A program made the translations under genes and the position numbers. Positions 7,338 to 36,770 of a DNA stretch of 64,000 nucleotides are shown one piece after another. Origin of the DNA: Branchiostoma floridae. Taxonomy: Eukaryota > Chordata > Leptocardii > Amphioxiformes > Branchiostomatidae. The stretch's first letter is position 1. Each line of letters starts with the position of its first letter. The notes beneath the pieces are model-generated. The model worked only from the letters and a program-made list of their open reading frames with translations, made no database searches and was not told the origin of the DNA. Location of the stretch: assembly GCF_000003815.2 (NCBI RefSeq), contig NC_049981.1, forward strand, positions 23,480,273 through 23,544,272. The letters run 5' to 3'.

Positions 7338-7553
7338 ATGTACACCTTAAGGACGTTTTGGACTAGTGGGCCCAAGTTGGCCCGCGGTGTACTTAGCCAA
7401 GGTGTGCCGGCGGCGCTGAGAGGTACCCCCGCCCAGCCTGCCCGGCTCCTGACCACCTCAGTACAACAGGAATCGTTCCTGAACGGGAGCAGCTCTAACT
7501 ATGTGGAGGAGATGTACTTAGCCTGGCTGGATAACCCCAAGAGTGTTCACAAG
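7338..7553 (+). CDS. OGDH: OGDH coding exon 1: mitochondrial presequence and E2/E3-binding start
   Basis: The first 40 or so residues are rich in Arg, Ser and Ala with almost no acidic residues, typical of a matrix-targeting presequence. The family motif that follows ([20 protein letters not shown]) is the conserved N-terminal segment. An in-frame TAA only 6 bases before the ATG (7329-7331) fixes the start codon. Confidence 0.95.
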
Positions 7554-13500: not shown

Positions 13501-16500
13501 CACAAGAAAATGTCCGCGTCATCTTAGCGTGCAGACAACAACAGCAAAAATGGCGTCGCAGAAAAAAATACAAAGCCACTACGGAATATTTGGTGTAAAT
13601 CTACGAATTTCTAGGCAGAAATACAGTCAAATTCATAGCGTCAAAGCGCAATATGTAAGGCACCTACATTTTGACCTACGAACAATTCGGAATCAAACCC
13701 TCATTACAAAAATCCGCCGCCACCCAAGCGTACAAACAACAACAATCAAGTTTCAAAATGGCGCCGACCGTGCGCCGCATGGTTCTCACAAAATTATTTC
13801 TGCGGCGCCGCATCGAGGTCGGCAACCTTCAAGTCTGGCGATGTTTTTATGCGTGAAAATTTTGCGATCTTGTTCGTTCCATGGCGGGCGACTTCTTCCA
13901 GAAACGTCTTTTTGATCGAATGCGTGGCCGATTCGAGATTCGCTGATGTCCCTCACAAGTTTTCGCTACCAAATTTCGCAATCTTGGTCCTGCTTCCGGA
14001 GTATGGTGGTGGTTCCCGCTACGTTTTTTCTCGCTGTTCGCCGCCTGTATGGCTTTCTCGGCTTCCTTATTCACGACAGCAGTATCAAGTGGGCTGTTGT
14101 CGTCGTTGGGTCGGCTATGTCCGCCAAAATTAAGCGGGCCGCCGGCCGGCCAGAGTCGGCGGTCGTCAAGCGCGTTTTGAAATCACCGCGTCGGTACAGT
14201 AGTTGTTTATTATTCAGAACCACACGCAGCGCCGGCGTGTATGTTATTTCTAGTCATGTATTTTTCGGACTTTAGACATGTAAACGACCGAGGGTTTTGG
14301 TAATATTCATGCTATTTTTTCACACATCCGACTGAAAATTTAGCGCCTCCTTCACAACGCTAAAATTAAGTGACGCGAGTTACTCCATTTTCCACAAAAC
14401 GCTATAATTTCCAGACGCGAGAATTTCAAGAATTACAGTATTTGATCGTCTCTTCCTGAAGCGGCTTCAGGGGCCAGGGACTCCCAAAGTCCGCACACAC
14501 CGTCTGCAGGACGTTCCGAAACTCTGGTGTTGTGCTGTCCGTCGCCATTTTTCTGAGAACTGCACGCGGGGGATCGATCAAGTTTCCTATCCCCGCCTAC
14601 TACTCCGCCCGGCCTGGCGCCGGGGATCACGTGATGGCTGGGCGGTTACCATAGTAATTCCTATCCTGGCTTCCTATTGGTGACTCCAGAAACTGGAATG
14701 GTCCGCGCGGCTTAGAACTGTTCTGCCACAAGCTCTCGGGGGGAGGGGGTCATTAAGCCCAGCCGGCGAGAGCTTGTGTAAACACAGGCTAGTGTGTCCC
14801 TGGCTTTATTATAAGCGGTGTAATTTGATTTCAATGCCAACAAAGAAGTAACTCCTTTCTGGTTCCCACGTACTTGACCTAGGCATATTTACATGCCGGC
14901 CTGCACGTTAGCACCTTTACAAATATGGCAGCTTCATGCGTCTTTCTATTACTTACTGTATTGTACTAGTATCCCCCTAGCAATGCATCTGCAAACTGCA
15001 GATAATCTTGTGAAGCAATACAGTCAATGACATATACAAAATGCTAGTGGTTTCAATACATATGGTATTTCCTCAAAGCACTTGCAAAATGTGTAAAAAT
15101 CATTTACAAATAAAATCTTTTACAGTAGCTTTAAATGATTCTTACACATTTTGCAATAAAAGTGTTTTGAGGAAATACCATGTGTTATGAAACCACTAGT
15201 ATTTTGTGTATGTCATTGACTCAGAGGTTTAAAGTGGTTAAAACCGTTAATGATCGCAATTTCATAATCATTTGGAGAAGGTATGGCACCGTTGAATTTT
15301 CGATGGTCAGCCTTTGTCCAAATGTCTCGGTCACATACAGCGCATGATTGTCGTACAAAACAGGGCATTCTTACGATAGTCATACATGTGCCTACATACT
15401 GTGTCTTCTTGGTACAATTTGATGGACAAGGCTGTCTTAGATCCTTGACGGCCTTTGATGAATATGACTGTGCTGTAAGTCTTATGTAACTGAAGTTATT
15501 GTCACGCCGCAGTCCTGGGATGTGTTCTTCCGGAACGCACAACGTGGCGCCGCGCCCGGAGAGGCGTACCAGTCCCCGCCCCCCATGGCGGCCATGATGC
15601 CCGTGCAGCCGGTGGCGTGGCCCATGATGCCGCTACCTGCGGCGCCCGCCGTGACCTCGGAACAGATAAGCGGGAAGGTCATCGATGACCACCTCGCTGT
15701 TCAGGCCATCATCAGGTCATATCAGGTCAGTTAAGGGTCCTCTATATACATGAAAGTATATAATAATCTTTATGAACTATTTTGTCATATGAGCCAAAGA
15801 ATACACCACATTTGAACATTTGACTATTTCTGGACTCACATTTGAACTTGAACTTTGAACGTTATTAAAGCACCACATTACAGGCACATGGGTAAGCCTG
15901 AATTGTGTTGGTGTGTACACATACAGCAGATCATTACAAGTTTTGCTTTTTATATTAGGTTAGAATTCCAACAACAGTTGAAAACAAGTGCAGTTGAATA
16001 GACTAGAGCATACTCATCCACACAGTACCATCCACATTTTGTTGCTCCGTGTAACATATTGATACCATTTTAGAATCTTGTAAGTTTTGATTATGTATGG
16101 CATTGTTTAATACCAACACATCATTTTTGTAACAGTGTTACTATTACTAGTTCACCTTTATCTGTGGTGTAACCTACATGTACTTGTATATGATTATAAT
16201 GTCAGAATTTAGGGATACCAAGTCAATGAACAGTGGTTTAAAAGTGCAATAGACTCTAGTTTGAAATGTATTGCAATTGGAAACCACCGTCCATCAACTT
16301 GGTATTCCTAATACATGTAGGTTACTTGCAGATAAAGGTGAACTTATTATACGCATTTTGATAGTAAGACAATTGCTCTAATACAAGACAATCGCTAAAT
16401 CTGAAAAATCAGAGGAGAACCATTTTGAGATCTGCAGTTTACAGTTCTTGTAATATTGCCAACCTTAATGTGTATGTTTGAGGGTTTCAATTGTTCTGTA

Positions 16501-19500
16501 GATTTTCAGTATGTGAATACAAACATATAACATTTAGACAGTACTAGTAGATGAGTTAGCTGACATGACATGTCCTCAGGATCCCAGTGTAGGACAGGAG
16601 TTAGGCAGCAGTGATGAGATGAGGACCAGGATAGAAACAGTTGTACCTCACCAGAGAATGCATGCCATGATTAGGGCCTACCAGGTGAGACTGGGTCACA
16701 GGCATAGGAGTCACCTGAATGGCTGTAATCCAGTTGTCAGTTTGTTTGTTGAACAGTTAGTTTGTCAACAGTTTGTATAGGGTTTTTACTTGTTTCAAGC
16801 TCAATATGTTTCCCCTTGAGTTGTGAATACTCTACAAGTGGAAGACCCTGTGTTCTACCATGTTGAGGTTAAGTTTCAAAGTTTTTTTTTAACAAAAGCT
16901 GTTTTATTGAACAGTTGAACTTGAACATTGCATTCAGATGAAATATTTCTTTGTTTTGAAGCTGGTTTTCACTTAATATACACAATTAGATTTCAGTACT
17001 TCACCAATGTCTAGCTTCTATTTGTAACTCCAATTACTGTTCATTGTTTTGTAATGCAGTTTTTGATGTTATGAATTGAAATATACTTATTCTTGTTTAA
17101 TCCAAAAAATGTTTATGTTTGAAGTTATTAGATTCTAGCACTTTTCTACAATCAAGGACAGTTGTCAGCATAGACCTTGTTCCAGTCTTACTGTTGCACA
17201 TTATCATTTTAAAGCAGATGTACACAGAAATTCTTTATGTGATGATGATGAGTTTTTTCATGAGAATCATTGATGTACATTGTATTTTTATTTCTGCACA
17301 GTTATTGTTGATGTAAGGGCTTCTTACACAGACATTGCATATGTGATGGTCCTATGCAAGAATAAAGAATTTTTGTGATGCTTTGACAGATCCGTGGTCA
17401 CCAATGTGCCAAGCTGGATCCCCTGGGTATCATGGAGGCAGACCTGGACACCTCTACCCCGCGGGAACTCACGCTGCCGTACTATCGCTTCAGCGAGGAG
17501 GACCTGGATCGCACGTTTGTGTTACCCCAAACTACCTTCATCGGAGGTGGCAATACCTCCCTCCCTCTGAGAGACATCATACAGAGATTAGAGGTGTGTA
17601 TTAAAGAAACAGTAAGTCTAGCGTATGTTATGTTAAAAGGGGTGTTGGGGTAAGGGTCCAATGGTTATTATAGTGAAATACTTACCTCTTAAATGACAAG
17701 TACAATCACAATTAAAGTTGTAATTATCATAATAATAATTGTATAATCATGCCCAAGTGCCTTTAGATACAAAAAGCATTATGAGGAAATGATGCTAGGC
17801 TTAAATATCATTAGACGAATTTACAGTTTTTCTGTCATGTCGTTGACATTTTTTTCTGACACCACAGGAAACGTACTGCCAAACCATCGGCCTGGAGTAC
17901 ATGCACATCAACGACCGGGAAAAGTGTGACTGGATCCGGCAGAAGTTTGAGATCCCAGGGATCATGTCCATGTCCAACGAGACCAAGAGACTGACGCTGG
18001 CGCGCCTGGTCAGATCAACAAGGTGGGATGATATGCATAGCGGGTTTTAGGGCTCAGAATTCATTGTAGGGAATAGGTGCACTGGTGAACCCTACCCCCT
18101 CGACAGATAAACGTTTTGTCTGAAATTTTGTAGCAAAGGTAAAATTTTTAGACAAAAAATAGAGCTTTTATAATTTTTTTCACACCAAATATTTTAAGTT
18201 GTGATTTTTATGCAGTACATCATAATCATATGTAATGGGAAAATTACAATAGTCATTTGCTCTTTTATCTATTTTTTGGGTGGAGCCTTTTTAACAAGAC
18301 CTTGATACTTTGCATGTTTGCAGATTTGAACAGTTCCTGGCCACCAAGTACCCTGCCGAGAAGCGGTTTGGGCTGGAGGGCTGCGAGGTTCTCATCCCCG
18401 CCCTGAAGACCATCATCGATCGCTGCACGGAACAGGGCGCCGAGAGCTTCGTCATGGGCATGCCACATAGAGGACGTCTCAATGTTCTCGCCAATGTTGT
18501 TCGTAAAGACTTGGACCAGATCTTGTGTCAGTTTGATTCCAGTCTGGAGGCCGATGACGAGGTATATATATGATGATATGTACAAAAGCTGCATCTAGCA
18601 TTGTAGTTTTTGAAAAGGTGCATTTTGATTAGATTATGTCTATCTTGTCCTCTCAATGACACGGATGTCAAGGGACTTGGTACTAGGTGATGATTGTAAA
18701 ACAAAAAAATTATTTTAAAACCCTGCCGTTGGGTGCCATTTTTCTCCTCCCTTCTTGTGTTTAATGTCTTGCTTAGTGTCATGCCTGTCCTTTTAAAATA
18801 CTCTGATATCATCCTTCTTTTCCATTGCCTACTCCTTTTTTTCCCTCCCTGGACAGTTCCTTTTCTGTTACTTTTGGCTAGTCCGAATGACTGTAAAGTG
18901 TGACCATATTACCACTTTTCTTTTCCGTGCTGTTGTTGTTACTTTTGTTCATAAAAGATCTGGTAGTCACACAGTCTTTAAGTACAATAAAAAAAAGCAA
19001 TAAATCAACAAATTGTACACAAACACCTCCTACAGGGTTCTGGTGACGTGAAGTACCACCTGGGCTGCTCCCACATGCGACTGAACCGCACCACCAACAA
19101 GTCCATCAAACTGGCGCTGGTGGCCAACCCCTCCCATCTGGAGGCCGTTGACCCCGTGGTGCAGGGAAAGACACGGGCGGAGCAGTACTACAGGGGGGAC
19201 ATTGAGGGCAAGAAGGTTCACTTTTTTCTTTTTCTTGAAAAAGTTGCATGGGTCATTGCAATGGAGAAGAGCATGGTGTGGAGGGATGTGTGGATTTGTC
19301 CCCTTCCAAGGTGTGGAGTTTTAGAGAATTCTAAGTTAAATGGGATTATTCTAAGGCATCTTGAGGGGAAAATTACCCAGTATAATTATATAATTCCCTA
19401 GTCAACATGAATTTTATGCTTGTCAGAGAGCCTGCCAGGGACATGAGGGCCTCTTAAGAGACAAAACAGTACAATCTCGGTCTGGCAGAATTGCAATTAC

Positions 19501-22500
19501 AAAGCTAAGTTCCAAAGCTAAGTTCGAAATTCTGATCATGTAATACAGGAAAGGTTTTATCAATTAGATGTCAAAAATAATGCTGCATACTAGTGGACTA
19601 TCGGTACGGTAGTACCTTTACATCCATTACCTTACACAAATATCTAGGTATACCAGTCCACACACAGACAAAAGTTAGGTGCACATCTCCAATTTTGGGT
19701 GCGCAAAAGTACATAATTATATTTATGCACCCAGTAACTAAACATGCTTCATGTTGGGCCCATGTAACATATGCAACTGTCTTTCCTTTTGATTAGGTGA
19801 TGAGTATTCTGATGCATGGAGATGCGGCGTTTGCTGGGCAGGGAGTTGTGTTCGAGACCTTCCATCTGAGCGATCTTCCCGCGTACACCACCCACGGAAC
19901 CATTCACGTGGTGGTCAACAACCAGATCGGTTTCACCACCGATCCTCGCTTCTCGCGCTCGTCGACATACTGCACAGATGTGGCGAAGGTAATGTAATGA
20001 CATAAACAGGAAACATGCAAACAATTGCACTTAATGTTGTAAAAGGGGAAAGACTAGTGGGATTTAACTTAGGGTAGGAAGAAGTTTGCAGTTGAAATGA
20101 AGGTGTAGGCAGAAAGATGCAAAACAAAACTTTTTAACAGAAACTCCTTTTCACTCCTACTGCAAAACTACATCCCTGCAAAAATAGATGAATTAGCTAC
20201 ACCTTCAAAATGTCCATGCTGTGAAAACAAGTACCAGATTGTATGACTTTAATCATCAAGGACTTTCCATGTGTCATTGAATCTAGTTTGTTCACATTCG
20301 ATGTACAATTTCATACAATGTACTTATACATGCCTACATTGTAGGTGGTGGAAGCGCCCATTTTCCACGTCAACGCGGACGACCCGGAGGCAGTGGCCCA
20401 CGTCTGTAACGTCGCAGCTGATTGGAGGTCTGAGTTTGAGAAGGATGTGGTGATAGACCTGGTATGACATACTGCTTCAATGTTCTATCTTTCAAAATAG
20501 TTGCATCGGGTTGGTAGAATATAGGATATAGGAGAATTCTTTTTACACAATTAAGTACTTAGTAAAACATTGCTTACATTTTAATGTCTCTCAGATGCCT
20601 TCGTCAGAGCTTCTAGCGTGTAAAAAGAATTATCCTATATCCTATGTTCTATCTTTGTTGCAGTTAGAATGTCTTGATCTGCCATATACATGTACTATGT
20701 ATATTTTGCTTCAGCTGTCTTAACAGGTACTGACAGTAAACTCCAGAATGAAAATCATCTTTAATGATGGTTTTGTAGTCTAGCATAAGCAAACCGTAGT
20801 AAAGCTGCATTGTTCTATCGGCAATCAAAAAAGGGGCATGCATAATTCTAAGCGTAACAGTATTCCAAGCTGACATGTTCCTATCCACCCTTTTGTCAGG
20901 TATGTTACCGGCGCGGCGGGCACAATGAGATGGATGAGCCCATGTTCACCCAGCCACTGATGTACAAGCAGATCGGGAAGCAGCCCACCGTGCTGAGACA
21001 GTACGCTGAGAAGCTCATCTCAGAGGGCGTGGTCACACAGGAAGAGTATGAGGTCAGTACACATCTTTGAGCATCCTTAATACGTGTTTTGACTTCTGTG
21101 CATTATAGTCATACTATGGAATTGTGGTCATTTTCCTGCCTTGTGAGACAGACATGTTGTCAATCATCCTTTGCACACCTTTTGGTATATACCCTTAAAG
21201 TACAATGTATAAACATATAGTGTCGGTGCAATCCCCATTTCCATAGCTCTTTGACCACACAGGCCACTATAGCTGAAAGCTACATGTAGTTCATTGGTAG
21301 TGGGTTGTGTTTAACTCCTGTACTTTTTATCGTGAGTGAGAAAGATACTGCTAACAGTGACACAAAGAGCAGCATGTTATCCTTGCTGTTTTGTACGTTT
21401 TTATGTTGACTGGGTGAGGCAGATGAGCACAAGCAAGGTCAGAGTAGGAATGAAATGATGGAAATTAAAATCATGATCTCTATGAAAAAAGCCTGTGAGA
21501 AACTTTCTAGTTTGACTTTTCGCTTTTCTGACGGATTGTGACTGTTTCCATTTTAGGAGGAAGTTTCCAAGTATGACAAGATTTGTGAGGAGGCGTATCA
21601 GCAGGCCAGGGAGGAGAAGATTCTGTCAATCAAACACTGGCTGGACTCACCATGGACAGGTTTGTATATACAATGTTAGAGCAGATTAGATCTTCCGCCA
21701 CTGTTCAGTACACATGCACAGAGCGAGTCCTTGGGGACATAGGATGCTTATGCAAGTTGAGTCTGGAAGTAGGTACAACAAAATGTACTTAATCTTGTAA
21801 CTGATTGAGCAAGGAAAAAAGAAAGAAAAGGAATAAGAAGACGATAAGTTCATTTGTGGTATTACCTGAAAAGATGTGCAGTGAGTGATGTACAGCTACC
21901 TTATCGAAATTACTTAGATGCTAGGTGTAAGTTTATAAGTTTGTGTTGTTTATAAGTTTGTGGAAGGACTGTCAATGTTTTCAGGTGCTATGAAACCAAG
22001 TCATTCATTACCAATCCCTATTAGCAAGGGCCTAATTTCTGTATGTTTACAATACCTTGTAAAATATAGTTTAATGGGGTTTGCGGATTCTTGGAGACCT
22101 GGTCCTGGCAGATGATGATGATGCGGGATTCTTGTTTTTCAGATTTCTTCAAGGACAAGACACGTGACTCGATGATGGTGTGCGAGTCGACAGGAGTGGG
22201 CGAGGACATCCTGACCCACGTGGGGACGTTCATGGGCAGCCCTCCCCCCGACCCCAAGTTCACCATCCACGGGGGCGTGAAGCGCATCCTGCGTCAGCGC
22301 GCCACCATGGTGAAGGAGCGCTGGGTGGACTGGGCGATGGCGGAGGCCATGGCATTCGGCTCCCTCATGCACTCCGGCTTCCACGTCAGACTGAGCGGAC
22401 AGGATGTGGAGAGAGGCACCTTCAGGTGGATGTCTGACTGTTCAATCAGAGCAAAATTTTGATCTTAGCCCAAAAGTATTTCATAGTGATTGTGTGTGTG

Positions 22501-25500
22501 ACTATAAACATGTTGACTGAATAAAGACTCACCTTATTTTCTTGCATAGAATATGCACCCCAATTAAAATAATCACCCCTGATTGGTGGAAATCTCAGAC
22601 AGATTTGTGAAACTGAAAGGTAAAATGGACAAACTCAAATAAAGTATGCACCCCTTCTCAACCAATTTTGAACTTGACAAATTCAAATATTATGTTATAA
22701 AAGTTATTTTGCATAAATGCCACTGTCATTGGCTTGTGAATTGTAAATTGCTTGCTGCAACTTAAAGAATTACTGAGAATGACCTGGTCGAACAAATTTG
22801 ATCATGAAAGATGATCATGATTCTTTTTACCCATGTTTTTCCTTCACATCTCCAGCCAGCGCCATCACGTGCTGCACGACCAGAACCGTGACAAGGTGTT
22901 CTGGACCCCGCTGGACAACCTGTGGCCAGACCAGGCACCGTACACCGTCTGTAACAGCTCGCTATCCGAGTATGCTGTCATGGGTGAGCGCCACTATACA
23001 TACTATATAAGACACTTAATGTGAAAATCATATATATCAGGGCTCAAAATCCTTTTTTCTGCATACCTTCACTGGTGCAGGTAACATTGAAAATTACCTG
23101 CACCAGATAAATTTTGCAAGCACCACTCTGAATTTAGGAATTATGGACCAGGTAAGTGCATGTCCTACCCCACTTGTCCGATAGCGCAAGTAAGATTTTT
23201 TCCATGACTGAGATTTGACATACTTGTTATCTTTCACAGTCATGTCATCAAGCATTAGTCAACACGGAAAAAGCAAAGCCAATAATAAAACTTAAGACTT
23301 CCTTTGATGGAAGTGACAATACCTCTAGACAAATGTCATTTAAGTCTCGGGCAAGTGGAAAGTTGGTTTGGGCAAGTAAATCTTTTATGTAGTTGCCTGA
23401 CAGGACAAGTGATTTTTTGAAAACTTGTTCAACCTTGCTGCACTAATCACCATTGTACAAAATGATTATCCTTATTTCTGTTGCAGGCTTTGAGTTGGGA
23501 TACAGCATGAGTAACCCCAATGCCCTAGTCCTGTGGGAGGCTCAGTTTGGGGACTTCTCCAACACTGCCCAGTGCATCATCGACCAGTTCATCAGCAGTG
23601 GGCAGGCCAAGTGGGTCCGGCAGACTGGCATCACCCTGCTCCTACCCCATGGGTATGAGGGAATGGTACGTCCCAACTTCACTGTTCTTGGTTGATTGTA
23701 TTTAAAGGCTGTCACTGTTATCTGCTATGTGCAGATTTAAGTGTAAACTTTTGAAAAGAACAACCCAGACACTAATAATGAAATCCTGTGATTCGACAAG
23801 GATTTTCTCAGATCATGACCCCAAAAAATAATAAAATAATGCCCTGGTGTAACAGGCCAAAATGTACCAGATTGTACCTGGGTATATCCTAACAAGGGGT
23901 ACATTCTGGCTTATTACATCGATACACTTTATATTTACCCTTTTACTACTAAAAATAAGCAAGTTCTCTTGTAACTTGTGATGAGCTACATATTTATACC
24001 CAAACTATTTTTCACTCCCAAAATGTGTTGTGTTGTTGCTGTAGGGCCCTGAACACTCCAGTGCCCGTATGGAGCGCTTCCTGCAGATGAGTACAGAAGA
24101 TCCAGATCTTTACCCGGTAGGTTAAAATAAAGAAAGTCTCAATGTCTGTATAGATTACAGTACATATGCACCGCATACAGGTATGTCACAACTTTTCATG
24201 AAGTCATTTTGGGAAAAGTCATGCATGTGTTCTTCAAATATTGTACAATGCCCTGTAACAAATGTAACTGAAAGCAACTGCATCAAAATGTATGATTATT
24301 GCAGTCAGTGTTATCTCCAGCCTGAAATTTTTTTCCGTCACCTGGATGTTAAACGGAATTTCTGCTCATCTGTGTTGGTAAATTCCATATTGAAAAACTT
24401 AAAATTTATGGTGAGTCCCTTCTTTGTGTTGGAACAAAGTTTAAACTTTTTCAATATCAAATGCATCTGTGCTGAATTTCTGGAGATCTTTGCAAAATTT
24501 CATTTGTTAAATTTCTCTACATGCCAATTTTTGTCTGTCACAGAGGATGAAATGGGCAAAATTTTTGTCCGTCCCCAGCTGCAAAATTTTGTCAAAGGAC
24601 AGAAGGTAAGGATGCTGGCTATAGAACCCAGCTGATTACAGTATTTTTTTTTTGTCTTTGCAGGAAATCGATGAGCGGTTTGAGATCCGTCAGCTGTTTG
24701 ACCACAACTGGATCGTCGCTAACTGCACCACTCCGGCCAACTACTTCCACCTGCTGCGCCGACAGGTGCTGCTGCCCTTCAGGAAGCCTGTGAGTACACA
24801 AACGTCCCTACGTTTTCCCTTCATGGTGTTCTTTCAGCTGGTTGTGATGACGCCAAAGAGTCTGCTGTGACATCTAACCAGACATAGCAAACATCTAGTA
24901 ATCATGTATATGTAAAGTGATTATATTAGTGTTACTCAGATGTCCCAAAGTTTGCCCTTCATGCTGTACTTTCTCTGTACTTCCAGCTGGTTGTGATGAC
25001 GCCAAAGAGCCTGCTGCGACATCCGGAGGCGCGCTCGTCGTTTGACGACATGCTTCCCGGCACCACGTTCCAGCGTCTGATCCCGGACTTGGGCCCGGCT
25101 GGGCAGAACCACGAGCAGGTGCAGCGCCTCATCTTCTGCACAGGGAAAGTCTACTACGACCTGACCAAGGTACGGAAACACAAAATCTTCTGCAGTCAAG
25201 CTCAAAGTGTAATGCTCAGGGTTATAGCTAGGATTTTGTCATAGGGGGTCCAAATTTCGTGATGAGTCACGGTAAGTGATATAGACACGACTACTGTAGG
25301 TAGGTCTGGGGGAACCGTAGTTTCCAGGAGTTTTCAATAATTTGCATTCTAAGGTATCCTGAGTGGCAAAATTACTGTCAGAGAGGTCACAGTAGAAGAC
25401 TGTTACCACAGATGACCTGGTGGCATCCCTGGTCAATCAGAATTTCATGCTTGTCAGTGGGTCTGCTCCCCATTGTATATAATCTAGTGCATCCTATTTC

Positions 25501-28192
25501 ATGTTATTTTAAGGAAAGCCCCTCCACGTAACCCTGGATGCTTGCCTGGCTAAAAGCCTGGTAATGCTGGAGATGAATTTTGAAATATTAATTTATTCTC
25601 CTGATGTTCTTTTCTTTCACAGGAGAGGAAGGCTCGTGATCTGGATGACAAAATTGCGATTGTTCGCATTGAGCAGGTAATGTATTTGGGGAGGGGGTTT
25701 AGATCTGCCACAAGCGTAACATCACCTTGGAGTAATCAACAAAGTGGTGAACTTCATCTTATTACTATAGGTATAAAGGGTCGCAATGATGTTGGTAGTT
25801 AAATAAGAGTACACAGCTAAAACTTTGTTTTATCAATTAGACCCAATATGTAAGTCTTCAGTGTCACATTAAACTGTCCAGCTGCTTCAGAATTCAGATG
25901 ACAGATGACCTTATGAACATGTAACAGCTGGTCAAAAATGCCAAGATATATATACCACCTGCTATCTCTGTCATCTTATTACATTATAATGTTATAAAAT
26001 CATCATTGTATTTTATTACAAAATAACAAGAACATGTAATAAACTTGTGGAATCTTTTCAAAACACACAAACGCTAATCTTTTCTGCAAAATGATATAAT
26101 GATTCCAAAATTTATGAGATAATTCATGTCATGTAATCAAAAGAGTGAGATTATACTATACTATACTATACATATCTATACATATGATCCATGTTGGTAA
26201 GGCTGTTCCGTGTGTTCCAGATCTCTCCCTTCCCATTTGACATGGTGAAGCAGCAGTGTGACCTGTACCCCAACGCTGACCTGGTGTGGGCTCAGGAGGA
26301 GCACAAGAACATGGGTGCCTGGAACTACATCCAGCCTCGCATCCGCACCACTGTGAACAGGGAGCGCCACGTCAGGTAGGGCTGCAGGGAGCCAGGGCTT
26401 TTACGGTCAGATACATATGTATTATGTATTTGCGACGTTACAGTCCAACAAGTTTAACAGGTTTCAATGGGCTTGATTTCTGTATTTGAAAAAAGTTGTT
26501 GCAATTGATATCATAATCATATTAGGATCAAAAGGACCAAAAATTCAAGAAGTTGTATTTTTTAATGGTATCTAATATATAAACACATGGAGAGGAACAA
26601 TACATAAATGTAACGATGGTTTTCAAAGTATTGTACTAATTAATGAATTGTTACTGATCAAGAAAATTGCTTCACGTCTGAATTCAGATTTTAATCATAA
26701 TTGATTATGATTTTTCTTTTCCATTGCTTAGTCCGATTCACACAAGCTGCAGCTCTTCAGTAGTACCAAATTTGTGCAGAGATAGTATCGAGTTTCTAAG
26801 CGAAGTTTGTATTGCAGGCTTTTCTGTCAGCTTAAACCCAAGACAATTTCGTTAAGTGCACGCGCATTTATGCTAACACAGCGCTCTCCAAAAGGTGGAG
26901 ACAAAAGATGTATCCAAGATGATGATAATTCGTTGCTCTAGAACTCTCTGCTTTAGACTTCTCTCTTCTTTGCTTTGCACCACCATCCTCACTACTATTC
27001 CTGCCACTTTTCCTTTCACTGATCACTGGCTTCTAACTTACTCCCTTTTATAGAGCGTTTTCACATGACGTCACCACTGTATCCATTGCCACTAAGTCTT
27101 GTATTTCATTGAGTCATACATTATCTACATGTAGCTGAAGTGTTTTATAGCTCTTTGAAATAATCTAATATTGAATTACTACAGCTAAAAGAAGATAATA
27201 TGAACACTTGAAAGCAGTGAAACTCGGAAACGTTGTAAACGCAAATCAAAGACACCAACTTATCAGTGCCTGCCTGCTTTATCAGTGTACGGATGGTTAA
27301 GTGAAAACGCTCTATAATCTTTCACATCATGGGAACATCAGGTTAATGTTTAATTTCTCACGCATGCCTCCTCCCCCTCTCTGTTGGTGTACCGTAACTG
27401 TAGCTACGCAGGTCGTGCGTCTGCTGCCGCCGCGGCCACAGGAGCTAAACAAAGCCACCAGCAGGAGCTGACCAGGCTGCTGCAGCATGCCATGAACCTT
27501 GACAATCATGTAGCCCTTTGGCAAAGCCAACCCAGGAGAAACCTCACCGGCTAGGCTGATCTCTGAGTCAGTGCACGGTCCGTTTGTGTCACCTATACCT
27601 AACCTCCTGTCCTCCTACTAACCATCCTGAACTGATTCAGACACCGATTTAGAAGCTGTTATTGGCACAGCCTCGAGTGAAGCCACTCTTTATTGCACTT
27701 GGATTCCAATGGTGTGAGATATCTCAGTTTCCAGTCTGTGTGGCATTTTTTGTTCAAGAGTCTTTAGAATCTCTTGCCAGCTATTGCCTGTCATTGTACT
27801 TGTGCTGAACTTGTGAAATGTTGTGACAGTTGAAGAAGAAACTGCCACAGATGCTGGCTTTATATCATGTTTAATGAAAAATAACACCTGATTCAGAGAT
27901 TATAATAAAATAACATAGCTCAAATTCTGTTTACACACAGCCATTTGTGATTCTTATTTTAGGATTGTAAAGCTGTAGGCAAAAGGAGGCTTGACCATAA
28001 AGCCACTTACTTAGGAAGGTATTTTTCTGAGATGTCATTAGAACTGAGATGCTCCCAGGTTGATCACTATCCTTAACAACCACACAAATCATTGGAAATC
28101 TCATCATCATTACCCCTCTTTTGATATTCCTGTCATCACTGTGCATATGTGTGCTTTAGCCTTTAGTTCTGAGAGTGGTTTGCTTTGGTTTT

Positions 28193-28230
<38 letters not shown>

Positions 28231-29771
28231 AAGACTTTGCAGCCGTATCACAGTAAAAGTTTTCAAAAGTAGGGTTTCTTACAGCAAAGCTGCCAAGCTA
28301 AAGACAGGTTCATAGTTCAATGTTTGTTTGTTTATTTTCAAACCCCTGGGTGGCCTATTCAGTTTAGATAAACTGATTTTCAATAGGGCCTAGTTTCACA
28401 TACAAGGAAATAAAAGCATATTACAAAGAAAATAGATAGACATACATGTACACATCGGAACATATAAGTACAAATGAAACAAGAAATGTCATTCCTTCCT
28501 TTTTGCCCTCCTTCTCCAAGTAACATCGGAACACAATCGTGGTATACTGTTTTCTGCTTTTGGCTTTTTGCAATTAGCAAAAAGAAAAAAACAATGGTAT
28601 GGTATGTCAGAAAACCTATTTCAAAGATCCCAGGAACATAAATCTCACTGTGTATTTGTTGTGGAGTTTTTTTGCAATATTTGTGAACAATAGATATGTT
28701 GTACATGTAGCAGTTGTATAATTAGCCAAAGCTAATGTAAGTAAATTGTAACTAAGCTCTTTTGGGTCTGACTACTACATTTATAACTTTGCTATAAAAA
28801 AAGTATAAGGCACGAGATATACAATCATCACATATATTAGTAGAATCCAGTCTGTTTTGATTTGGCCTTTAGAAACTACAGTATATTGGCCTTCTGTTTG
28901 TAAGCATTTACATGAATCAAGATGTTGGTACCTTAGTTGTACAAGTACAACAAGGCCCCCACAATATATTTCAAGAATTGTGTTTGGACCATATCTGTTT
29001 TCTTGCCATAAGGCCACACCAATTTAATTTCTTGTTTCACGGATTCGCTCGCTCCAATTTTTTGGAAAAAAAAACAAAAATAAAAATTACCACTCAGCAA
29101 ATTTTCACCATTAATGAAACTATTGACCAACTTTCTGATGTAGCAAATTGGCCTTTATATTATAAATTGTGGGTATTATTATTGCAGTTATATTTTTCAT
29201 TCATGAAAAATGGGACAAACATAAAAACTGACACTACTTTTGTAATTTTCAATGAACAGGTGCTGTTACTGTACAGTAATAGTGTTTTTGTACCTTTTTC
29301 AAGCTGAAAACTTTTTATTCTTTATGTTTTGGATGAGCCCTTACCTTTACCCCAACCATTTTACAATTTTTATTTTCATTTCGCCCTCTCGCTCCATATT
29401 TTTTATGAAAAAATCCGTGAACCAAGAAATTAAATTGGTGTGGCCTAAGGTGGTATCAGAAAAAGTAGTAAGAGCAAGGTTGCCGTAGTAACAGAATACA
29501 TGCAAGTAGCAGTAGCAAGATAAGAAGATAAGATAAAAGAAGATAAAAAAAGACTTGTGTGTAACAGTTTTGTCAAAGATGCTTCTTGTGTTTTACAGAA
29601 TTCTGACTTGTACTGTTTCCCCATTGTGACAGATACTGTGGCCGACATGGTGCAGCGGCGTCCGCAGCTGGAAACAAGTTCAAACATACCAATGAGCAGA
29701 ACAATTTTGTCAACCAAGCCACCGACCTCGCCTGGAAAGAACCGGTCTGGGTCGGACCCACCTCAGAATGA
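7338..29771 (+). CDS. OGDH: 2-oxoglutarate dehydrogenase E1 component (OGDH/OGDHL type), multi-exon
   Basis: This is the thiamine-diphosphate-dependent E1 subunit of the mitochondrial oxoglutarate dehydrogenase complex (TCA cycle). It decarboxylates 2-oxoglutarate and transfers succinyl to the E2 lipoyl group. Coding exons are 7338-7553, 15513-15725, 17390-17593, 17868-18022, 18324-18561, 19036-19215, 19797-19988, 20345-20461, 20900-21052, 21557-21659, 22143-22425, 22856-22983, 23487-23665, 24045-24116, 24664-24789, 24987-25169, 25623-25676 and 26221-26375, then one terminal exon, 27404-27554 or 29633-29771. All junctions are GT-AG and all phases match, giving about 1033 or 1029 residues; human OGDH is about 1023. 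Visible landmarks are an Arg-rich N-terminal presequence, [62 protein letters not shown] and [19 protein letters not shown] across the exon 13/14 junction. Exon 6 has a weak donor (AAG|GTTCAC). OGDH and OGDHL probably split in vertebrates, so this is best called pre-duplication OGDH/OGDHL. Confidence 0.97.
7902..7984. repeat. Short hairpin element
   Basis: The left arm (from 7902, TACCATCC...GGCTCAAT) and right arm (ATTGAGCC...GGATGGTA to 7984) are near-perfect inverted repeats with a loop of about 25 bases. It has the shape of a foldback MITE and lies in OGDH intron 1. Confidence 0.8.
9015..9333. mobile_element. hAT-like non-autonomous element (MITE)
   Basis: The termini are inverted repeats, CAGGGCTCGAAAT on the left and ATTTTGAGCCCTG on the right, enclosing about 320 bases rich in repeated ACCTGCACC/GGTGCAGGT motifs. 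The CAGGG start fits hAT elements. I could not see a clean 8-base target duplication. A truncated relative lies in OGDH intron 12. Confidence 0.7.
9521..9760 (+). repeat. tRNA-derived SINE copy, internally deleted
   Basis: The start (GGCAAGGTGATCTTGTGGTTA) and the later blocks around CACACCTATTTCCTCAC and GTGAAAATGAGTG match the element at 31787-32060. Part of the tRNA-like head, including the B box, is missing here. Confidence 0.6.
10019..10065. repeat. Short tandem duplication, about 23-base unit
   Basis: The unit GCCTAAGTATGTAAAGGCCA occurs twice in direct succession in OGDH intron 1. Confidence 0.85.
10260..10480 (+). repeat. SINE-related fragment
   Basis: It shares the tail of the SINE at 9521-9760: GAGAAGAGCCACACCTTGAG and ATAAAAGAACCCACCACC resemble that copy and the one at 31787. 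The tRNA-like head is not visible. Confidence 0.45.
10680..11340 (+). repeat. Degenerate tandem repeat, about 150-base unit
   Basis: About four diverged units follow each other, starting near 10756, 10911, 11062 and 11200. Each has a GG-TGTAGCGG-TGT-like block, then TTCGAAAATGGG-like, then AACTCGAGA...GATGGA. The units have lost about a third of their identity, so this is an old array in OGDH intron 1. Confidence 0.6.
11535..11610 (-). repeat. Dispersed repeat family member (inverted copy)
   Basis: The reverse complement contains CATCCCTGGTCAATCAGAA followed by TTTCATGCTT, nearly identical to a plus-strand copy near 25408-25465 and similar to one near 19398-19445. All three sit in introns of the same OGDH gene. 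Family unknown. Confidence 0.65.
12657..12692 (+). repeat. (CATA)n microsatellite
   Basis: About nine tandem CATA/TACA units in OGDH intron 1. Confidence 0.9.
13000..14800. other. GC- and CpG-rich block inside OGDH intron 1
   Basis: Base composition is clearly richer in G+C and CpG than the surrounding AT-rich intron, with GGCCGGC and GGCGCCG motifs. Several overlapping open frames up to 142 codons occur on both strands, as expected from composition alone. None has a recognisable domain. An alternative promoter or an unannotated mobile element are both possible. The end near 14727-14815 resembles a dispersed repeat also seen in the EPDR introns (near 49029 and 55118). Confidence 0.4.
15023..15220. 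mobile_element. Hairpin MITE, about 198 bases
   Basis: The outer arms GTCAATGACATATACAAAAT and its near-perfect reverse complement ATTTTGTGTATGTCATTGAC bound a foldback element whose arms pair over most of their length. It lies just upstream of OGDH exon 2. Confidence 0.8.
16149..16344. mobile_element. Hairpin MITE in OGDH intron 2
   Basis: Perfect 16-base ends AGTTCACCTTTATCTG and CAGATAAAGGTGAACT enclose imperfectly self-complementary DNA, including GGTGTAACCTACATGTA facing TACATGTAGGTTAC and GGATACCAAGT facing ACTTGGTATTCC. This is typical of a foldback element. Confidence 0.8.
16580..16684 (+). CDS. OGDH: Candidate OGDH cassette exon (2b), 35 codons
   Basis: An open, phase-0 stretch is framed by a good acceptor (TGTCCTCAG) and a good donor (CAG|GTGAGACT). 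Adding it between exons 2 and 3 would keep the reading frame. Its last residues (HAMIRAYQ) mirror the end of exon 2 (VQAIIRSYQ), the conserved boundary just before the GH-x-A-K-LDPLG motif. It may therefore be a diverged duplicate of the end of exon 2, used as a cassette or alternative exon. The rest of its sequence is not recognisable. Exon use needs RNA evidence. Confidence 0.5.
18324..18561 (+). CDS. OGDH: OGDH exon 5: start of the ThDP-binding catalytic region
   Basis: It encodes [19 protein letters not shown] and [19 protein letters not shown]. These are signature segments of the E1o catalytic core, including the His-Arg-Gly-Arg turn that lines the active site in this family. Confidence 0.95.
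19388..19445 (+). repeat. Dispersed repeat family member in OGDH intron 6
   Basis: TTCCCTAGTCAACATGAATT followed by TTATGCTTGTCAGAGAGCCT is a diverged relative of the units near 11535 (inverted) and 25408. Confidence 0.5.
19797..19988 (+). CDS. OGDH: OGDH exon 7: ThDP/Mg-binding motif
   Basis: It encodes [10 protein letters not shown] followed by [14 protein letters not shown]. This is the GD-A...NN thiamine-diphosphate/Mg motif of 2-oxo-acid dehydrogenase E1 proteins, with the Asp and both Asn residues present. Confidence 0.97.
20521..20645. mobile_element. Hairpin MITE in OGDH intron 8
   Basis: The arms starting ATAGGATATAGGAGAATTCT and ending ATTATCCTATATCCTAT are inverted repeats about 28 bases long with one mismatch zone, around a loop of about 70 bases. 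Confidence 0.8.
23038..23150. mobile_element. Truncated hAT-like MITE
   Basis: It starts CAGGGCTCAAAAT and continues with a CACTGGTGCAGGTAACATTG block closely matching the left half of the element at 9015-9333. It breaks off near 23150. It lies in OGDH intron 12. Confidence 0.7.
24838..24870 (+). pseudogene. Partial duplicate of the OGDH exon 16 start with in-frame stop (decoy or poison exon)
   Basis: A pyrimidine tract with acceptor (TTCTTTCAG) is followed by 30 bases nearly identical to the start of exon 16 at 24987: [10 protein letters not shown] in frame, then TGA where exon 16 has CGA (Arg). The similarity extends into the upstream intron (CCCTTCATG...TTTC), so a segment of about 149 bases spanning the acceptor was tandemly duplicated and one copy decayed. 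Splicing to this acceptor would give a premature stop. Confidence 0.8.
25408..25465 (+). repeat. Dispersed repeat family member in OGDH intron 16
   Basis: GATGACCTGGTGGCATCCCT followed by GGTCAATCAGAATTTCATGC matches the inverted unit near 11535. Confidence 0.65.
27049..27316. mobile_element. MITE with 16-base terminal inverted repeats
   Basis: Perfect inverted termini TATAGAGCGTTTTCAC and GTGAAAACGCTCTATA bound about 268 non-coding bases just before the first OGDH terminal exon. TA at the ends would fit a Tc1/mariner-type target duplication, but the superfamily is inferred. Confidence 0.8.
27404..27554 (+). CDS. OGDH: OGDH terminal exon version A
   Basis: The acceptor TAACTGTAG joins exon 18 in the correct phase (AG|C gives Ser). 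The frame reads [16 protein letters not shown], then [13 protein letters not shown] and a tail ending QPRRNLTG before TAG. The YAGR...A-A-TG-K and ELTRLL parts match the usual OGDH C-terminus. A poly(A) signal at 27904-27909 would end this transcript. The basic tail after the LLQHAMNL block is longer than in the human enzyme. Confidence 0.85.
27904..27909 (+). promoter_or_regulatory. Poly(A) signal AATAAA for OGDH terminal exon A
   Basis: A canonical hexamer about 350 bases after the terminal exon A stop codon and before terminal exon B, so choosing it would exclude exon B. Confidence 0.55.
28194..28228 (+). repeat. (TG)n microsatellite
   Basis: About 17 TG units between the two alternative OGDH terminal exons. 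TG/GT repeats can influence splicing, but no effect is shown here. Confidence 0.9.
29012..29445. mobile_element. Harbinger-like MITE with TAA target duplication
   Basis: Terminal inverted repeats of about 35 bases start GGCCACACCAATTTAATTTC and end in the reverse complement, at GGTGTGGCC. TAA flanks the element directly on both sides (29009-29011 and 29446-29448), as PIF/Harbinger elements produce. The interior of about 360 bases is AT-rich and non-coding. Confidence 0.8.
29633..29771 (+). CDS. OGDH: OGDH terminal exon version B
   Basis: The acceptor ATTGTGACAG joins exon 18 in the same phase as version A (AG|A gives Arg). The frame reads [19 protein letters not shown] and then an Asn/Gln-rich stretch to [12 protein letters not shown] before TGA. 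The Y-x-GR...AAA-A-x-G-x-K core aligns with version A and with the family C-terminus, so the two are homologous duplicated last exons. Confidence 0.75.
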
Positions 29772-31620
29772 ACATTACATACTCTTGTCCCAGACCATTC
29801 TTAGTGTAGTTTCCGACTGATTTTTGTATGACTAGTTTATAGACATATATAGACATAAAGAAACAGCAGGTTTGTAATCTGTAAGGCAGGTACTCAGTTT
29901 TTAATCCCAGGTTGCCAGGTAAATCTCAATGCTCTTTCAAGTGTGCTATTTTGAAGTGAACTTTTGCCATTTGGTGCATCTTTGGTATGATATTTTGACC
30001 ACATTTACTGCTGTTTTGTTTCTCAGCAGAATGCACAATAGATGGGGAAAATGTAGCACAAAGTACAAACTAATTACAAATGATGGTTTCTCTGAGAATA
30101 CATAAAAATATTAAAATAGTTGACCATTGTATCTGGTGTACTAGGAGGGACACTTGTAACAAACAGCTTGGATGATGAAGGTTTCTCCTGTGCTTTCAAT
30201 ATTGGAATGTTTCACAGTAAAAACTAAAAGGGAGCAAGGAAGGGACAGTCTATAAATGACAAATGCACTATGTAAAATAGGTACATTGCCTTGTTGCGAT
30301 GTGAAATGATATGAAGGCTATATACAAGTTTTATTACAAGATAGGACAAACCACACAAACTTGCCACGACGTATAGCAGTCACGTACTTTTACTTTTGCT
30401 TGTACAGAAATAAAGACACCTAATACGGACAAAATGATAGATAGCAAATTAAGGTAAGGGGGGTCCAATTCCGAAAAGTGTGGATGCAGTTCTTGGTTAA
30501 TCTTGTTGAATTTTGTTGATATTGAGTCTGCATGTTTGGAATTTGTTGTTGAACATTTCAGTAAGTTGGTTTTATCTTAAACTTGTGTTCTTTTGTACAA
30601 AGTATAAACTGTGTATAAAAGTATTGTAGTCCCACAGTAGAAAAGTTGCCGGATGCTAAAGACACACAGAAATTTACTTTATGCAGATTGCATGAAAATA
30701 ATTCTTGCTTCACCAACCACAGTCTTAAGACAATGACTGCATATTTATGACTTAGAAATAAACCATTGGTAAGTTCAGTGGTGAACCTTACTGCATTGTG
30801 GGGCTTGAAATTGTAGTAATATATCGGGAATGGTCTGGACTTTTCCATTGTATGTTGCTTTAAAGAAGAGAGAGACTTTGATTAAAGATTATTGTAATAT
30901 TTTTTTCTGGTGCTGTTTCTTACTGAAGAAGGGCTCTTTATGGTATTATGATGCTCATAAGTATGTTTTTGTACTTCTACAGGTAATCTGGCACTCTCAC
31001 ATTCGTAGTTGTTGGAATTCTGGGAGACTTGCTACCTATTAGATTGTACTGTTTTAAAAAAAGAGGTTAAACTGAACAGAAGTACAACACAATCATACAG
31101 AGGAATAGATCATATATGTCATTTTACTTAATGATTCCCTTAGGTCATGTTTCAAATTTTTGAAACAGAGGAATGCTTCCTATAAAAGGCATTCAACACA
31201 TTGTTATTTGTAAAGGTAAATGTAAAAATAGCCTACTAGACAATCAGACACTATCAATACATGATACATGTTGTATGTCACTGTACCATGTTTCTCCTTA
31301 ACTTGTCACTACATGCAACAGAACTGTATACACTTCAGATTTCTTCACTTTGTACAGAAGATATTCAGACTCAACTTCTGAAAAAGTTTTTTTTCAGCGA
31401 TTCAGTGTTTGGCTGACCAGTCCCACTCACAAAGTTTGTGGCACAGTTTTATAGTACAGACGGTAGAGATTGCAATCAGGCAGAATCACCAGTCTTGCCA
31501 GGAGACATCCGATCAGAGTCCCCTGCAACAGAGACTCTGATCTTTACAGGTAGTATCAGCTATTCGGTAGATAACAGTCTCAATCCTGACGTGTAGCCAT
31601 ACTTCGCCATGTTTGCTGTA
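29772..31620. other. OGDH 3' flank and intergenic DNA
   Basis: AT-rich sequence that probably holds the 3' untranslated region of the longer OGDH transcript. An AATAAA at 30409-30414 is a candidate poly(A) signal. The open frames at 30558-31042 overlap on both strands and show no domains. The 3' untranslated region of the minus-strand UPF0728 gene also lies at the right end. Confidence 0.5.
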
Positions 31621-34604: not shown

Positions 34605-34724
34605 TTTCTACAGATAGAAGTGACTGACTTACTGTGTAGGTTGAACAACAGACCCAACTACATTCACACGTACATGTAAACCAGGAGAACCTAACAGCCA
34701 GGGGACCAAACACCACACCACAGC

Positions 34725-36770
34725 ATGCGGAACCTGACAATCTGCCCAGTTCTCCTTCTCCTGTGCCTGGCAGGAGCCATCGCTCAGGTGGAAATCCCCA
34801 CTTTTCTCCCGACGTCAGACACCACGGCGCGACCCACCACCCGGGAAAGCCCGCTTCTCAACGCAAACGATGACCCTACTGTACTACAAGGTAGTCTGAA
34901 GTATCCAAATGGCACAGCCTGCCTGCTGTATAAGATGGGACTCGCTGTCCAAATTCTTTACGGAACCACAGATTCAAGGATAGGAGTAGCCAGGTTTGCC
35001 CTTCCCACTGATACTACGGTTGGCGGATTCTGTGGCGTAACCGCCGCTATGCTACAGTTTGCCTTCAACAACGGGACCTACAATGTGTCGCTTGAGTTCA
35101 CTAACGATGGCAAACAGTTCGAAGTGTCTGCCGCCTCTGTTGGATGGGTGTTTGACTCGACAAACTTCCCAAACGCATCCCTCCAAGGTAAAAGTGCTGC
35201 TCAGAATAACACACAAGGAGACTTGGGGTTGTTTTACGCTCCACTTGGGCAGTCGTACCTTTGTCGATCGGAGGACTCCAAAGAGATAAGTGTTGATGTC
35301 ACTCTGTTCTTCATCGAGGTGCAGGTCCAGCCCTTCGATGTGACAGCGGGAAAATTTGGACAGCCTCTGGAGTGCAAGAAGGACATGCCGACCACACCGG
35401 CTCCTACAACAAAGGTCCCAACAACGCCAGCCATGAACACGACAACCGCACCCAACACCACATTGGCTCCCACAACAACAGCTTCACCTATCATGAACAC
35501 CACAACAGTCCCTGGGACCACTGCCAGCCCACCTACCCACCGTGGGAAGTGGCACGTCCGCAGCGAAAACGACACCTGCCTGCTCGCTTACATGGCCGTC
35601 AGGTTTGAAGCACATTACCTGACAAATGATGGCAGCAATGGAACTGCGGCAGTGTGGTTGCCTACTGACGCAACAGCAGACGGCTCCTGCTCTGAACACA
35701 ACAGTGTGATCGAACTGAGGTCGGACGTGTCAAACTTGACCATCAACTTCCTGAAGGCGGCAGGAAGTACGTCCTGGAGTGCATCCTCCATTTTCTTCTC
35801 CTACAGAGAACTTCCAGCCTTCTTCATAGACACAGCCAACCCTGGCCAGCAGCATATTGTTCGAGTTGACCACATCAACATGTTTATGACTGGCACGGGA
35901 CAATCCTACAAATGTGACACAGAGATATCCGTACCCCTGAAAGATGGCGTCACCCTCAAACTCAGCCAGCTTCAGGTGCAGGCATTCGACGTACAACATG
36001 GCGACTTTGGAACACCCAAAAGGTGTCCAGCTGACCTCCCCCCTACCCCCGCCCCGACCATGACCCCCTTGTGTCCCCACCTGCCTCCCCCAGGGAAGTG
36101 GGTGGTGAAAGATGCAAAGGGTAACCCCTGTCTCCTGGCTGACATGGCACTACAGCTCCGATCACGTTACATCACTGCTGACAACGCCACAACGGTAGGG
36201 TGCATTGGCATACCAACTAACGCCGACGTTACTGGCGTCTGTGGACAGAATACATCCCAGCTCAGTCTTTCCTTTCACGCTGGAGAGTTCAACATAACCT
36301 TCACGTTTTCGGAGTCGCCTCAGAATTCGTCCAATCCAGGCAGCGGGGACAAGTTCGGTGTGTCACAGGTTTCTGTCGAGTACTTCATCAACGACATATG
36401 GTTTCCCTCTGCCCAACAGCAGGGCCAAAGGGTGAAGATCACCACTCCAAACATGGAGATATTTGAGGCACGTGTTGGCCAATCGTATCAGTGCATGAGG
36501 CAGACCAACGTCACCCTAAACAAGGATGTCACTCTCTTCACGCAAGACCTGCACCTCCAGCCATTCTCAGTCAGCGGGTACGGTTTTGCAAAATCCTACG
36601 TCTGCCCCGAGGACCCGACCCCAGAACCGTCCTGGAAGGCCAACATCGTGCCGATGGCAGTAGGCTGTGCACTCGGAGCTTTTGTGATCGTCGTGACACT
36701 GGGAACATATATCGTGTACAGGCGCAGGCAGAAAAGAATGGCAGGATACTCCCTTCTCTCTACAACGTGA
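34725..36770 (+). CDS. LAMP-family lysosomal membrane glycoprotein with three lumenal domains, intronless
   Basis: The 681-residue frame has an in-frame TAA upstream (34692) and no internal intron. A signal peptide (residues 1-20, leucine-rich, cut near AIAQ) is followed by three LAMP lumenal domains. Each has four cysteines with exactly 37-residue loops: C66/C103 and C180/C217; C285/C322 and C397/C434; C469/C506 and C590/C627. Pro/Thr-rich hinges lie at about 222-273 and 436-457. There are many N-glycosylation sites, one membrane span at about 640-664, and a short basic tail with the sorting motif GYSLL (674-678), like the GYxxΦ signal of LAMPs. Domain 3 region has two extra cysteines (C450, C493). 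LAMP1/2 have two domains and several introns, so both the third domain and the lack of introns are unusual. Expected role: lysosomal membrane coat. Confidence 0.9.
   Translation: MRNLTICPVLLLLCLAGAIAQVEIPTFLPTSDTTARPTTRESPLLNANDDPTVLQGSLKYPNGTACLLYKMGLAVQILYGTTDSRIGVARFALPTDTTVGGFCGVTAAMLQFAFNNGTYNVSLEFTNDGKQFEVSAASVGWVFDSTNFPNASLQGKSAAQNNTQGDLGLFYAPLGQSYLCRSEDSKEISVDVTLFFIEVQVQPFDVTAGKFGQPLECKKDMPTTPAPTTKVPTTPAMNTTTAPNTTLAPTTTASPIMNTTTVPGTTASPPTHRGKWHVRSENDTCLLAYMAVRFEAHYLTNDGSNGTAAVWLPTDATADGSCSEHNSVIELRSDVSNLTINFLKAAGSTSWSASSIFFSYRELPAFFIDTANPGQQHIVRVDHINMFMTGTGQSYKCDTEISVPLKDGVTLKLSQLQVQAFDVQHGDFGTPKRCPADLPPTPAPTMTPLCPHLPPPGKWVVKDAKGNPCLLADMALQLRSRYITADNATTVGCIGIPTNADVTGVCGQNTSQLSLSFHAGEFNITFTFSESPQNSSNPGSGDKFGVSQVSVEYFINDIWFPSAQQQGQRVKITTPNMEIFEARVGQSYQCMRQTNVTLNKDVTLFTQDLHLQPFSVSGYGFAKSYVCPEDPTPEPSWKANIVPMAVGCALGAFVIVVTLGTYIVYRRRQKRMAGYSLLSTT

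Follow-up and report, generated by a model that had tools for sequence, protein, structure and literature searches.

A putative pair of homologous alternative last coding exons in amphioxus OGDH

It is known that vertebrate OGDH contains mutually exclusive internal exons 4a and 4b, which act as a Ca2+ switch (PMC7969005). Of 236 tandem duplicated exon substitution events counted in human genes, 77 are C-terminal (PMC9741552). In two Branchiostoma species, exon duplications have been described in the G-alpha genes preGNAS, preGNAI and preGNAQ (PMC5896119), and Drosophila pip, cited as a UTR example, has eight tandem terminal exon clusters (PMC9013439). Terminal exons duplicated in tandem form an established class, and OGDH is an unusual place for a pair of them.

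We analysed a window (the whole stretch of DNA studied, 64,000 nucleotides) of the Branchiostoma floridae genome, where the OGDH gene ends with two candidate alternative last coding exons, 19A and 19B, encoding tails A and B. As in the vertebrate 4a/4b case (PMC7969005), an exon is duplicated in the same gene and E1o isoforms are the predicted outcome; however, the vertebrate exons are internal and affect Ca2+ sensitivity, whereas here, judging from the sequence, it is the last coding exon that is duplicated and the C-terminus that is swapped. We rejected the possibility that 19A and 19B are themselves the 4a/4b pair, as they encode the C-terminus and not the DADLD Ca2+ segment. Exon 3 of the gene encodes IMEADLDTS, with EADLD where vertebrate 4b has DADLD, and no second match to this exon was found in the window below E 0.3 (tblastn). 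The human C-terminal substitutions (PMC9741552) also involve homologous coding exons at the 3' end, of which each mRNA carries one, but those are annotated events, whereas the OGDH pair is known from sequence alone; OGDH does not occur in the main text of that paper. The cephalochordate G-alpha duplications (PMC5896119) concern other genes, and the protein likeness of the preGNAS copies is 80-81%, compared to 13 of 32 identical residues in the core of tails A and B. The pip exons (PMC9013439) are likewise tandem, homologous, terminal and chosen singly, but they are a UTR example and not part of a TCA-cycle enzyme. The earlier note on this DNA was not aware of any C-terminal isoform pair described for OGDH, and our searches agree with it: no such pair was found among the matches listed from the open-licence literature or in passages of a paper on Drosophila OGDH (PMC10323237), and OGDH has no occurrences in a paper on human mutually exclusive exons (PMC5740500).

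The complete OGDH (E1o) coding region occupies positions 7338-29771 on the + strand. The 18 shared coding exons were located by eye using GT-AG sites and the reading frame, and then checked by a script. The exons of the model are as follows.

7338..7553, + strand: OGDH coding exon 1, ATG start at 7338, ends NPKSVHK
15513..15725, + strand: OGDH exon 2, SWDVFFRN...IIRSYQ
17390-17593, + strand: OGDH exon 3, GT-AG, open frame
17868-18022, + strand: OGDH exon 4, GT-AG, open frame
18324-18561, + strand: OGDH exon 5, GT-AG, open frame
19036-19215, + strand: OGDH exon 6, GT-AG, open frame
19797-19988, + strand: OGDH exon 7, GT-AG, open frame
20345-20461, + strand: OGDH exon 8, GT-AG, open frame
20900-21052, + strand: OGDH exon 9, GT-AG, open frame
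21557-21659, + strand: OGDH exon 10, GT-AG, open frame
22143-22425, + strand: OGDH exon 11, GT-AG, open frame
22856-22983, + strand: OGDH exon 12, GT-AG, open frame
23487-23665, + strand: OGDH exon 13, GT-AG, open frame
24045-24116, + strand: OGDH exon 14, GT-AG, open frame
24664-24789, + strand: OGDH exon 15, GT-AG, open frame
24987-25169, + strand: OGDH exon 16, GT-AG, open frame
25623-25676, + strand: OGDH exon 17, GT-AG, open frame
26221..26375, + strand: OGDH exon 18, donor CACGTCAG/gtaggg common to 19A and 19B (splice site, frame)
27404..27554, + strand: exon 19A, proximal last coding exon, 49-residue tail, AG acceptor, stop TAG at 27552-27554
29633..29771, + strand: exon 19B, distal last coding exon, 45-residue tail, AG acceptor, stop TGA at 29769-29771

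The introns are GT-AG throughout, and the spliced product is one open frame with a single terminal stop in either version, of 1033 amino acids with 19A and 1029 with 19B. The last 176 amino acids of the B isoform match the human OGDH chain 7wgr_A with E 3.2e-66. Intron 15 contains, after an AG, a broken piece of exon 16 (24838-24873); it covers the first 12 codons of the exon, matches 11 of the 12 residues and contains an in-frame stop, and by its look is a failed exon duplication, a plain relic.

The earlier note had proposed two terminal exons that follow exon 18 in the same phase and have their own stops, and a script verified the coordinates, phase and stops. Two codon bases are left over at the end of exon 18 (26375); AG precedes both 27404 and 29633, and each exon restores the frame. 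The two isoforms are identical over 983 residues and first differ at residue 984, the junction and tail start reading HVS-YAGR via 19A and HVR-YCGR via 19B. 19A and 19B are neighbouring homologous exons that share the acceptor phase and remain open up to stops of their own. As the stop lies inside A, the two would be alternatives for the protein end. The E1o core that the note had described as common to both tails is indeed present, although the pattern as written was one residue short; the corrected form is Y-x-G-R-x-x-A-A-A-x-A-[TA]-G-x-K-x-x-H.

The homology of the two exons is evident from searches of the whole window by tblastn. Tail A retrieved exon 19B with E 4e-4 (next best 0.34), tail B retrieved exon 19A with E 3e-4 (next best 0.39), and the human OGDH tail retrieved 19A with E 1.2e-7 and 19B with E 2.6e-5 and nothing besides them below E 0.5. 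The likeness between A and B in this search spans 39 residues with 14 identities (35.9%). We also considered whether the window contains the tail a third time and rejected this, as below E 0.3 A, B and the human tail retrieved nothing beyond these two copies (tblastn).

Both isoforms belong to the E1o C-terminal domain family (Pfam PF16870, gathering cut-off 27). The whole-protein score was 156.6 bits without a tail and increased to 191.2 on adding A and to 188.2 on adding B, and the match covered positions 1-151 of the 151 in the profile with A and 1-150 with B, while without a tail it ended at 113. Either tail also added bits on the three NCBIfam E1o models TIGR00239, PRK09404 and PRK12270, with B ahead on the first (159.4 vs. 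151.1) and A ahead on the second and third. Taken alone, tail A matched human OGDH in PDB with E 0.0021, and tail B had no match in PDB up to E 10. Identity to the human tail is 19/32 for A and 15/32 for B, and at position 12 B is without the threonine present in 89% of bacterial tails (from the best 80 of 591 loci). Given this threonine, the larger distance from human and the lack of a PDB match alone, B is the more derived of the two tails.

These observations are most probably explained by an ancient event in which the last coding exon of OGDH was duplicated in tandem and both copies were retained as functional alternatives. Exon 18 would be joined to 19A, with cleavage and polyadenylation within the following 2 kb, or, alternatively, it would skip 19A and be joined to 19B; the two mRNAs would then yield E1o proteins differing in the last 45-49 residues and in the junction residue. 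Both transcripts are presumably made. In such pairs, the proximal acceptor together with its 3' end usually competes with onward splicing to the distal acceptor, and the choice between 19A and 19B would presumably be a splicing/polyadenylation competition of this kind. The candidate poly(A) signals are the following.

27904..27909, + strand: AATAAA, candidate poly(A) signal downstream of 19A, a motif no commoner than chance
30409..30414, + strand: AATAAA, candidate poly(A) signal downstream of 19B, a motif no commoner than chance
30757, + strand: AATAAA, second candidate after 19B, a motif no commoner than chance

The AATAAA motif for the poly(A) signal ascribed earlier to the first exon is present at 27904, but it is weak evidence, as AATAAA is seen five times in 27401-31200 compared to 3.4 expected. 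With a matrix built from the other 17 acceptors of the gene, the acceptors of A and B scored 7.4 and 8.0, respectively; both values lie within the span of the leave-one-out scores of those 17, from -4.0 to 15.8. The region 26400-31000 contains 276 AG sites, of which six outscored the acceptor of B, and that of A ranked eighth; hence acceptor scores do not single out 19A and 19B.

Two inverted repeats are situated near these exons. One, at 29011-29446 between 19A and 19B, has 35-nt arms, 97% complementary and 366 nt apart, and looks like a small terminal-inverted-repeat element. The other, at 27048-27317 in intron 18 just upstream of 19A, has 22-nt arms (91%) 226 nt apart, and is perhaps a small mobile element, or else a hairpin affecting the acceptor choice.

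Alternative last exons can act via their 3' UTRs. One exon of the pair could be the standard ending, with the other serving as a minor 3' end for adjusting the enzyme level and not for making a distinct protein. We consider this unlikely, as a purely regulatory end needs no full E1o C-terminal domain, and the domain is complete with both A and B.

Still less likely, only one of the exons is used, the other being a remnant of an old duplication that has dropped out of splicing. B is the copy further from human and the one with no PDB match alone, and the same gene does hold a plain relic, the exon 16 piece with its in-frame stop. On the other hand, B is similar to A on both the Pfam profile and the profile of bacterial SucA tails (best 80 of 591 loci). 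The latter set consists mostly of Alphaproteobacteria, as seen from the titles; a tail was obtained by pattern from 65 of these 80 loci and not from the other 15, and 55 distinct tails formed the profile once the rows had been cut to 32 residues and those that were short, contained X or were identical to another had been removed. On this profile (best 80 of 591 loci) A scored 32.2 bits, B 33.6 and the human tail 46.0, and we rejected chance likeness of B, since none of its 5000 shuffles exceeded 12.1 bits. All eight columns conserved in at least 90% of the 55 bacterial tails (best 80 of 591 loci) are present in A, B and human.

We then compared these values with simulated neutral decay, in which one copy was held unchanged and the sites were treated as independent. 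Decay of A retained on average 1.85 of the eight conserved columns, and all eight, which B retains, in none of 5000 runs (columns from the best 80 of 591 loci). At the distance separating the copies, 2775 of 4000 decays from A contained a stop, 13 of 4000 retained an equal number of identities, and none of 4000 attained the bacterial-profile score of B (best 80 of 591 loci). For decay from B the respective numbers were 2776, 2 and 0 of 4000, the last one for the score of A (same best 80 of 591 loci). Even at half the distance, the score of the other copy on the profile from the best 80 of 591 loci was attained in 0/4000 runs from A and 1/4000 from B. Thus, a neutral relic was rejected, as decays of the same distance mostly hold stops and lose both the conserved columns and the profile score.

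The differences between A and B are also distributed unevenly among codon positions: 13, 11 and 24 of 32 at the first, second and third positions, respectively (third vs. first and second, Fisher p 0.001; chi-square over three positions, 0.047), and 9 of the 13 residues common to A and B are encoded by different codons. As the third positions are near saturation, the duplication should be old. We infer that A and B have been selected for the same domain over much of their separate history, this reading of purifying selection coming from the profiles and from the comparison of A and B within one sequence. Hence the duplication giving two possible C-termini, as suggested in the earlier note, is the best reading of the exon pair, given the homology, phase, coding look and constraint. 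An assembly or haplotype artefact, with A and B being two alleles or parts of a second gene joined in error, is hardly credible: one 100-base N gap in the window (43623) does indicate a scaffold, but it is the sole gap and lies outside the OGDH gene, 48 of 96 aligned coding bases differ between the copies, with third positions near saturation, which is far above the allelic level, and sensitive tblastn (E < 0.1) revealed no duplicate of any other OGDH exon in the window apart from the broken exon 16 piece.

If the duplicated last exons are indeed both in use, OGDH isoforms would have arisen by exon duplication at a second place, separate from the vertebrate Ca2+ switch. Moreover, the same eight tail residues are found from bacteria (best 80 of 591 loci) to human, and two selected versions in one gene would form a natural experiment on the function of the tail.

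As for this function, E1o is the least active, rate-limiting component of its complex (PMC7969005), and Lys959 of human E1o cross-links to the lipoyl domain of E2o (PMC10003691). The C-terminal cross-links of the E1o homologue E1a with E2o differ from those of E1o (PMC10003691), so the cross-link argument may suit E1a more than E1o. The human E1o structure in the same paper is without the first 128 residues (PMC10003691), and we take it to be 7wgr_A. This chain has 895 residues, and its tail begins at 857. With the offset of the chain and a human E1o presequence that we assume to be 40 residues long for the numbering, Lys959 corresponds to tail position 15. Both tails have a lysine there (GAK in A, GNK in B), while much of the remaining tail differs, and the swapped exon spans the whole 955-975 stretch in human E1o numbering. 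One may speculate that the tail swap tunes the contact of E1o with E2o, although this is a guess.

There may also be a further alternative OGDH exon, which is much less secure than 19A and 19B.

16580..16684, + strand: exon 2', possible alternative exon, 35 codons, phase 0-0, ends MHAMIRAYQ/gtgaga

Its acceptor scored 4.1, its donor is CAG/gtgaga, and its end, MIRAYQ, resembles the end of exon 2, IIRSYQ. The frame is kept both when exon 2' replaces exon 2 and when it stands beside it. We compared the two with a short helix profile of a segment obtained from 63 of 80 bacterial SucA loci (the best 80 of 591; 62 distinct). On this profile (best 80 of 591 loci) exon 2' scored 6.9 bits and exon 2 5.8 bits, exon 2' was the first among 1385 open 22-mers before GT in the window, and the own score was attained by 6/3000 shuffles of exon 2' and 21/3000 of exon 2. 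Exons 2 and 2' do not match each other by tblastn at E 1.

Two peptides, YVEEM and LENPKSVHKSWDIF, are protected upon complex formation and are assigned to hE2o in the source (PMC10003691). The protein encoded by OGDH exons 1-2 contains YVEEM and a 14-residue counterpart of LENPKSVHKSWDIF, and hence we take both peptides for E1o. Exon 2' adjoins the NPKSVHK-SWDVFF stretch. A modular E1o, where the N-terminal segment from exon 2' and the tail from 19A or 19B would jointly determine, depending on tissue or stage, how E2o is engaged or which of the two complexes, oxoglutarate or oxoadipate, is chosen, is a doubtful extension of the model.

Downstream of OGDH, a long open frame on the + strand at 34695-36767 encodes a lysosomal membrane protein of LAMP-like type (PF01299, 220 bits, in three stretches).
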